Part shown: positions 32,901-33,860 of the stretch, piece after piece
How positions within the stretch are numbered: position 1 is the stretch's first letter
Layout of the letters: every line of letters begins with the position of its first letter
Source: Acidobacteriota bacterium
GTDB lineage: Bacteria > Acidobacteriota > Terriglobia > Terriglobales > SCQP01
Length of the DNA: 48,549 nt
Assembly (NCBI GenBank): GCA_021818955.1
Contig: JAKASR010000028.1
Location: 1 to 48,549, forward strand
Direction of reading: 5' to 3'
Notes under the pieces: model-generated
What the model was told of the DNA's origin: nothing
Seen by the model: only the letters and a program-made list of their open reading frames with translations
The model's database searches: none
Translations under genes and position numbers: made by a program

Positions 32901-32949
32901 AAACGGCGGCGCTCGGAGTTCTGCTTCCAGCCGCGATGCGATTTTTTTC

Positions 32950-32978
32950 TTGACACCTGCCCGCATCAAATTTATACA
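32950..32978 (+). promoter_or_regulatory. Near-consensus sigma-70 promoter of the lysine peptide gene
   Basis: TTGACA at 32950-32955 and TATACA at 32973-32978 are exactly 17 bp apart. I found no other TTGACA at correct spacing in the window. The predicted leader of about 54 nt contains the palindrome TCGCAT-T-ATGCGA (32995-33007). Confidence 0.85.
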
Positions 32979-33038
32979 TTCAAATCATCCCGTCTCGCAT
33001 TATGCGAAAGGGGAGCATTCGACAACAGGAGAAAAGCT

Positions 33039-33095
33039 ATGGCAAAAGCCACGAAGAAAAAGGCCGCAAAAAAGACGGCGAAGAAAAAGAAGTAA
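33039..33095 (+). CDS. 18-residue lysine/alanine-rich micropeptide
   Basis: The ATG at 33039 opens MAKATKKKAAKKTAKKKK and a TAA. Eleven of the 18 residues are lysine, so it resembles the tail of histone H1-like or HU-like proteins and would bind nucleic acid. The gene is fully equipped: TTGACA-17-TATACA promoter, AGGAG ribosome binding site 7 nt before the ATG, and an 11-bp-stem terminator 26 bp after the stop. That is more signal quality than most genes in this window have, which argues for strong expression. Acidobacterial genomes may encode similar Lys-Ala mini-proteins, but I cannot confirm it. An alternative is that the transcript is a small RNA whose short frame is incidental. Confidence 0.75.
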   Translation: MAKATKKKAAKKTAKKKK

Positions 33096-33121
33096 GCTTG
33101 CCATTTCGGTAAGCCGGTTTG

Positions 33122-33154
33122 AAAGGGGACGGATTTCCGTCCCCTTTTTTCTTT
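33122..33154 (+). terminator. Intrinsic terminator of the lysine peptide gene
   Basis: AAAGGGGACGG and CCGTCCCCTTT form an 11-bp stem with an ATTT loop, followed by TTTCTTT. It closes a transcript of about 160-170 nt from the promoter at 32950. Confidence 0.92.
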
Positions 33155-33224: not shown

Positions 33225-33860
33225 ATGAGCGAGGTTCTCAGCCTCAACCCGCGGAATCCGGATGCCGACGGCGTGCGGCGGGTCGTGCAATTTCTGCAGC
33301 GCGGCGAAGTCGTCGCGCTGCCGACCGACACCGTGTATGGACTGGCGGCCAACCCATTCGACCTGGCGGCGGTGGAGCGTATTTACGCGCTGAAGGGCCG
33401 GGCGCACGCCAAACCCCTGTCGCTGCTGGTGCCCGGCATTGCCGCCGCGGAAGAGCTGGCGCGCGAGTTGCCGCCCATCTTCTATGAACTGGCGGAAGCC
33501 TTCTGGCCGGGGCCGCTGACGCTGGTCGTCAAAGCCGCTAGCCCGGTGCCGCTGAAGGTGACGGCGCAGACCGGCCATGTGGCGCTGCGCTTTCCGCTGG
33601 CGCCGATTGCGGTCGCGGTGATGCTGGAAGCGGGATTTCCGGTGACGGCGACCAGCGCCAACCTGAGCGGCATGCCGGAGTGCGCCAGCGCTCAGGAAGT
33701 GGCGTTGCAGTTGGGGCCGGCGTTGCCGTTAATCGTGGATGGCGGCGCGGCGCGCTTGCGCCAGGCCTCCACCCTGGTGGACTTGACCGGCGGAGTGCCG
33801 CGGCTGCTGCGCGAAGGCGTGATCCCGAGCGAGGCGCTGCGAAAATATTTGGCGCTATGA
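33225..33860 (+). CDS. tsaC: L-threonylcarbamoyladenylate synthase (TsaC/Sua5)
   Basis: The 211-residue protein has the YrdC-like nucleotide-binding fold. It contains VVALPTDTVYGLAANPFD, IYALKGRAHAKPLSLLV, FWPGPLTLVV, and VTATSANLSGMPEC. The KxRxxxKPL-like signature is present (K-G-R-A-H-A-K-P-L). It makes threonylcarbamoyl-AMP, the first step of t6A tRNA modification, which TsaB/TsaD then use. The start at ATG 33225 follows CAGG; a start at 33153 would add 24 residues reading through the previous terminator region. The next gene overlaps its stop by 4 bp. Confidence 0.93.
   Translation: MSEVLSLNPRNPDADGVRRVVQFLQRGEVVALPTDTVYGLAANPFDLAAVERIYALKGRAHAKPLSLLVPGIAAAEELARELPPIFYELAEAFWPGPLTLVVKAASPVPLKVTAQTGHVALRFPLAPIAVAVMLEAGFPVTATSANLSGMPECASAQEVALQLGPALPLIVDGGAARLRQASTLVDLTGGVPRLLREGVIPSEALRKYLAL

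Follow-up and report, generated by a model that had tools for sequence, protein, structure and literature searches.

A class-wide lysine-peptide gene of Acidobacteriota and the possible roles of its peptide and transcript

Can a frame of 18 codons, consisting mostly of lysine, be a gene in its own right, and would it then act through its peptide, its RNA, or both? The question is raised by a locus in contig JAKASR010000028.1 (assembly GCA_021818955.1) of an Acidobacteriota bacterium of the class Terriglobia and the order Terriglobales (below, the class and the order). The window, i.e., the whole stretch of DNA that was analysed, comprises 48,549 nucleotides. A sequence-only reading had proposed here a free-standing, strongly signalled gene for a lysine peptide. 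Promoter, leader palindrome, AGGAG site, frame and terminator were all confirmed by direct reading at the positions it gave (Table 1); frame and length of the peptide MAKATKKKAAKKTAKKKK also hold, with 10 lysines and not the 11 originally counted. As summarized below, this locus is almost certainly a real gene.

Distribution of the gene and selection on its peptide

Relatives with the same layout are spread over the order, and at least six further families of the class have them too, which makes the question of a chance frame moot. The common layout comprises a T-tract, a TTGACA-17-TATAC promoter, a 5' hairpin, a GGAGAA ribosome site, a Lys/Ala frame of 11-28 residues and a terminator. The sequence-only reading had pointed to other acidobacterial genomes as the place to look for the same peptide with promoter and terminator, and it is there that they occur. 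The low complexity of the peptide makes protein searching useless, and the searches used DNA patterns of promoter and ribosome site together with a leader model. These were built from the genes themselves and give no unbiased census, so the counts below should be read as minimum values where divergent members are concerned.

When a strict pattern (ribosome site, M[APST]xKK, KK-stop) was applied class-wide, 31 of 399 genomes gave a match, compared with 0 for the reversed control pattern, and nearly all frames behind the matches were lysine peptides of 11-20 residues. The A-type ribosome site with its start was present in 94 of 130 genomes of the order, representing 33 of 39 genera (control, 1 match). 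Thirty of these order-wide loci were read: 29 encode lysine peptides of 13-24 residues with the same promoter, hairpin and GGGGGACGC/GCGTCCCCC-type terminator, and L240 is the sole chance match. Model R1, which was built from 26 sequences and describes promoter, leader and first codons by sequence only, gave matches in 174 of 299 class genomes with a per-genome cut-off of E≤0.05 (the E-values are rough). Forty R1 matches were fetched, and a Lys-rich frame was present in all those outside the genera g12 and g14 and genome G039. The families with such a frame are f6 (MKNATKKAAAKKAAPAKKKK and similar), f5 (MAAKKKAKKKR, 11 residues), f8, f10, f11, f14 and f3. Several matches start with MKNATKK, an N-terminus that the model had not seen. 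The N-terminal pattern MAKATKK was also tried class-wide and dropped; its matches outside family f1 were chance frames, mostly from one shared region. In 26 aligned A-type genes, the T-tract and CTTGAC are invariant or nearly so, and TATA (alignment A3) as well as GGAGAA and the G after it show no variation; 66 of 66 family members have, at a similar distance, a promoter that scores 9/12 or more.

The terminator GGGGACG/CGTCCCC recurs in a large part of the order, and another class of the phylum has it as well. Two genomes outside the class, from other families of the phylum, carry MATKKKAAKKAAKKTTKKKAAKK and a 28-residue form with the same GGGGACGCC/GGCGTCCCC terminator. The 28-residue form (L328 in G559, from another class of the phylum) ends in CCC (MATKKKAAKKPAAKKKVAKKKATKKCCC), and these three terminal cysteines are perhaps metal- or redox-linked. 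In f6, the same locus (L376 in G198) holds a 76-residue K/A/T repeat version (MKYATKKAAKKATKK...), apparently grown from the usual 20-25 residues. Stand-alone tiny lysine frames with ribosome site and terminator were also found in unrelated phyla, in Omnitrophota (L128, MAKATKKKATKKAAKRK) and Bdellovibrionales (L134, MAKATKKKAAKKTTKKKATKKK); both read MAKATKKK..., with 17 and 22 residues, and may be either homologous or convergent. Nearly all members sampled from a dominant soil order thus have the gene, which is too short for the size cut-off of ordinary gene finders and belongs, as far as the searches reach, to a family that has no name.

DNA searches and reading of the loci showed that the layout is fully kept in f1 relatives, with the peptides MAKATKKKAAKKTAKKKK (G001), MAKATKKPAKKAAKKTATKKKK (G002), MAKATKKPAKKAATTTKKKTAKKK (G003), MAKATKKPAKKAVKKAAPKKKKK (G004), MPTKKPAKKAAKKPAAKKKTSKKKK (G005), MAKATKKPAKKAAKKTAKKKK (G006), MATKKPAKKAAKKPAAKKTSKKK (G012) and MAKATKKPAKKAAKKKTSKKK (G013). 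The frame differs from that of the sister species by 3 bases, and 3 of 3 differences are synonymous. In 17 independent pairs of equal length, differences at codon positions 1, 2 and 3 number 13, 5 and 71, as the sequence-only reading would have it for a peptide whose frame is kept in relatives. The same pairs contain 60 synonymous and 29 non-synonymous differences, where 21% synonymous are expected (p about 1e-20). This synonymous excess argues for selection of the frame as a peptide, which is very probably made. The features kept are composition, a lysine-rich end and the start, which reads M[AP]x or MKNATKK; order and length vary. The 76 collected copies (11-25 aa) consist of 55% K, 31% A, 8% T and 4% P, and the Lys/Ala/Pro-rich composition with KKxAKK-type repeats is H1-like. 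No match was obtained for 22- and 25-aa members in Pfam and NCBIfam or for the 76-aa member in Pfam, and a limited search of the open-access literature found no report of such a peptide.

A paralogue, type B (MAAKKKAAKKPAKKKK), is present in the same genome outside the window (L002, G000:C28:123393-123453) and also in relatives. Its signals are a promoter (TTGACT, TATATC), a double leader hairpin, an AAGGAGG site and a GGATGCGC terminator. B-type leaders (e.g., L277-L279, L283 and L284; f2) contain a hairpin-like CCTTCAAGGGAGAAGG element, so that GGGAG recurs in type B 5' of the true ribosome site.

The leader hairpin and transcripts lacking the frame

The predicted 172-nt transcript folds at z = -4.8 relative to shuffles. 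The leader hairpin just after the transcription start, which in the window includes the palindrome TCGCAT-T-ATGCGA (32995-33007), shows compensatory changes that preserve it (12 pairs, 8 sequences). Pairing is found in 84% of cells, compared with 30-43% when the alignment is slid, and the covariation score is 0.34 versus 0.22 in shuffles. Other families have a different stem sequence at the same leader position.

Promoter, hairpin, GGGAG box and terminator also occur with no Lys frame, i.e., as forms lacking the open reading frame (ORF-less), in g12 (4 species), g14 (9 species) and G039. By eye, the start codon in g12 has changed from ATG to ACG (GGGAGAATAGGCAAATGGCAAC in coding relatives, GGGAGCGCAGGCAAACGCAAC in g12), and in 4 of 4 g12 species the stretch from GGGAG to the terminator contains no ATG, GTG or TTG. 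Some g14 species have a possible GTG or ATG frame, which lacks a good ribosome site and runs into the terminator. In both genera the locus lies just upstream of rsmE (PUA_4 domain), as do the coding members L242 and L243, and this shared neighbour supports orthology. AGGCAA repeats occupy the place of the frame in the ORF-less forms and are also present in the 3' untranslated region (UTR) of 22 of 45 coding members, where this region averages about 29 nt. The g12 transcripts have an identity of 0.73 (flanks, 0.35 and 0.44) and those of g14 one of 0.57 (flanks, 0.42 and 0.27). Because the ORF-less transcripts are better conserved than their flanks, the RNA may act by itself; this is the simplest reading of these forms, with a cis role at rsmE as the alternative. 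For the transcript in general, an independent RNA role is suggested only tentatively.

No Rfam covariance model matched above its gathering score at 26 loci. Assignment to a known RNA family was rejected; CsrC matches of 16-17 bits, compared with 61, are at chance level and composition-like. Regulation by CsrA through ANGGA at the ribosome site was likewise dropped, the motif being kept neither in g12 nor in f1.

Proposed function and competing explanations

Strong expression is expected because of the quality of the signals. A strong housekeeping-type promoter would give a short mRNA of about 165 nt with a 5' hairpin and a free ribosome site, which would probably be stable and well translated. 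The peptide would then act in trans as a disordered, histone-H1-tail-like polycation and bind cellular polyanions, most probably DNA or RNA; it is the composition, together with known H1-like tails, that suggests nucleic acids. The charge of MAKATKKKAAKKTAKKKK is +10 from lysine, and acidic and bulky hydrophobic residues are absent apart from the start methionine. With a charge of about +10 and no other feature, the peptide is hardly an enzyme or a membrane protein, and we regard a trans-acting polyanion binder as its somewhat favoured role. Across the class, the gene is independent of any fixed neighbour: neighbours differ between families, are often convergent, and include thiolase-like genes, rsmE, apt, convergent methyltransferase-like genes and others. 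Since the neighbours outside f1 are unrelated and often convergent, a trans-acting product is likelier than a leader that senses N6-threonylcarbamoyladenosine (t6A). The gene can therefore be called free-standing, as first described, for the family as a whole, which has its own signals, but not for the f1 lineage, in which it always lies just upstream of tsaC.

Several points weigh against a polyanion-binding peptide. Composition is the sole ground on which nucleic-acid binding is proposed. In g12, g14 and G039 the peptide has been lost while the transcript stays, which means that the peptide is not indispensable. Finally, the constant linkage to tsaC in f1 is unexplained by a purely trans-acting role.

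The best-surviving rival, although unlikely, takes the RNA for the main product: a small regulatory RNA found class-wide (or, next to rsmE and tsaC, a leader), with the lysine frame as a dispensable passenger of secondary importance. It is favoured by the persistence of the other elements in the ORF-less loci, by the excess identity of these transcripts in g12 and g14, by the AGGCAA repeats common to both forms and by the covarying leader hairpin. Against this, the frame of the coding members is selected as protein, few of their elements are as well kept as ribosome site and start codon, and the non-coding forms are limited to few genera; the position of the g12 and g14 forms upstream of rsmE also means that they may be derived leaders there. 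The original choice between a tiny polycation and a small RNA is accordingly recast: the polycation is the natural reading, but the two are not alternatives, as both seem selected and two genera retain the RNA but not the frame.

A lower probability is assigned to a ribosome-bound micro-protein that fills an rRNA pocket, similar in size and charge to bTHX, the 26-residue basic ribosomal protein of Thermus. Size and charge fit, and translation genes (tsaC, rsmE, rplU, miaA) are among the neighbours in various lineages. However, a length of 11-28 residues (76 in one species) and a freely varying K/A order are unlike a one-site peptide, and the Pfam and NCBIfam searches above also speak against it.

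More improbable still is a leader-peptide attenuator of tsaC, in which scarce t6A would slow the decoding of AAR/ACN (ANN) codons, relieve termination and give more TsaC, the first enzyme of t6A synthesis. In f1, tsaC is the next gene in every genome where the locus was seen, despite a changing upstream neighbour (DUF420 in only some), and in G006, G004 and G002 it starts 11-36 nt after the terminator stem, which leaves little room for a separate promoter. The frame also consists of ANN and GCN codons ahead of a t6A-synthesis enzyme, and a precedent exists in thrL, where t6A modification of tRNA-Thr affects attenuation (PMC4132733). On the other side, orthologues in other families adjoin unrelated or convergent genes, on which finding the tsaC-specific mechanism was dropped, and the sister family has a tsaC that lacks this leader. 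The paralogue, with a very similar peptide, lies downstream of purE and ahead of rplU or atpF-like genes (an atpF-like gene in G000; names by eye from translations). No conserved antiterminator pairing was seen, although no systematic search was made; the window contains one 8-nt alternative pairing (33007-33014 with 33140-33147), a sequence that the sister species lacks. At most, read-through leads to co-transcription of tsaC, and this in f1 only. An attenuator of lysine biosynthesis or lysyl-tRNA was also rejected, since none of the contexts read contained a neighbour of that kind. The possibility of a low-complexity frame that arose between genes by chance has nothing but low complexity in its favour and is practically negligible in view of the class-wide conserved signals, the synonymous excess and the shuffles: Lys-rich frames (12-30 codons, at least 45% Lys) numbered 1 in the real window and 0 when its full sequence was dinucleotide-shuffled 60 times.

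Locus features, genome context and known systems

The features of the locus are collected in Table 1. The promoter scores 10/12 to consensus; its -10 box was read directly, since the automatic promoter scan demands a final T and passed over it. In the terminator, the stem AAAGGGGACGGA/TCCGTCCCCTTT (33122-33147) is followed by TTTCTTT and has 12 complementary bases per arm, or 11 bp with a realistic 4-nt loop. The 7-bp stem after the stop codon reads GGCAAGC in the sister species, i.e., a G-U pair becomes G-C, and it was not seen in other genera. The local GC of the gene is 0.47, compared with about 0.65-0.7 in its surroundings. The contig belongs to a genome of 3.8 Mb that is 96% complete. Upstream of the gene lie CtaA/COX15, a UbiA-family prenyltransferase (CtaB-like) and DUF420, and downstream tsaC, DUF218, an acyl carrier protein and a ketoacyl synthase.

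Table 1. Features of the lysine-peptide locus in the window, and loci of ORF-less forms in other genomes
Feature	Position	Strand	Details
T-tract and -35 box	32943-32955	+	TTTTTTCTTGACA-like; TTGACA at 32950-32955; read from sequence
-10 box TATACA	32973-32978	+	17-bp spacer from -35; read from sequence
5' leader hairpin P1	32989-33013	+	TCGCAT/ATGCGA, lengthened by CCC/GGGG; fold prediction
Ribosome binding site AGGAG	33027-33031	+	7 nt 5' of ATG; belongs to GGAGAA..AG box
18-codon frame MAKATKKKAAKKTAKKKK	33039-33095	+	10 Lys, 5 Ala, 2 Thr; read from sequence
Small stem GCTTGCC/GGTAAGC	33096-33114	+	directly after stop codon; fold prediction; this genus only
Intrinsic terminator	33122-33153	+	GGGGACGG-loop-CCGTCCCC and T-run; terminator scan and fold
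tsaC, L-threonylcarbamoyladenylate synthase	33225-33860	+	TIGR00057, 170.5 bits (cut-off 123.2); constant downstream neighbour in family f1
ORF-less loci, g12			L369, L371, L406, L407
ORF-less loci, g14			L364, L366-L368, L402-L405, L408
ORF-less locus, G039			L365

Among known systems, bTHX is, like the lysine peptide, tiny and lysine/arginine-rich, but the length of the peptide is not constant here, and we know of no sequence similarity between them. ThrL-type attenuators likewise have a short frame rich in one residue and then a terminator, here ahead of tsaC; the lysine-peptide gene differs in that no conserved antiterminator was seen and that outside f1 it has no fixed downstream gene.

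Closer in composition are histone-H1-like proteins. The KPAA tail of AlgP resembles H1, and its peptides bind DNA (PMC9239181). The AlgP C-terminal tail and Hc1/Hc2 share with the lysine peptide the K/A/P/T composition, AKK and KKPAKK motifs, presumed disorder and strong positive charge. Their tails or whole proteins, however, are many times longer, annotated and often accompanied by another domain, whereas the lysine peptide is a whole product of 11-28 residues with its own strong promoter and no Pfam or NCBIfam profile match. It would be a minimal natural H1-tail peptide, possibly usable for studying chromatin-like compaction in bacteria.

In organization, the gene resembles dual-function RNAs such as SgrS/SgrT or VcdRP, in which a short structured transcript carries a micro-frame and a terminator (PMC8672173), and here too RNA and peptide may both act. 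The differences are that no base-pairing target is known here, that the peptide is a polycation and that RNA-only versions exist in whole genera. It is conceivable, although less likely than not, that the gene is an ancient RNA of dual function that belongs to the core of a major soil phylum, and it would then combine the smallest known H1-type nucleic-acid-binding peptide with an independently selected RNA that is purely non-coding in two genera. With lineages in which the locus is coding, expanded to 76 aa or ORF-less, comparison of species could separate the coding and non-coding roles of one transcript.
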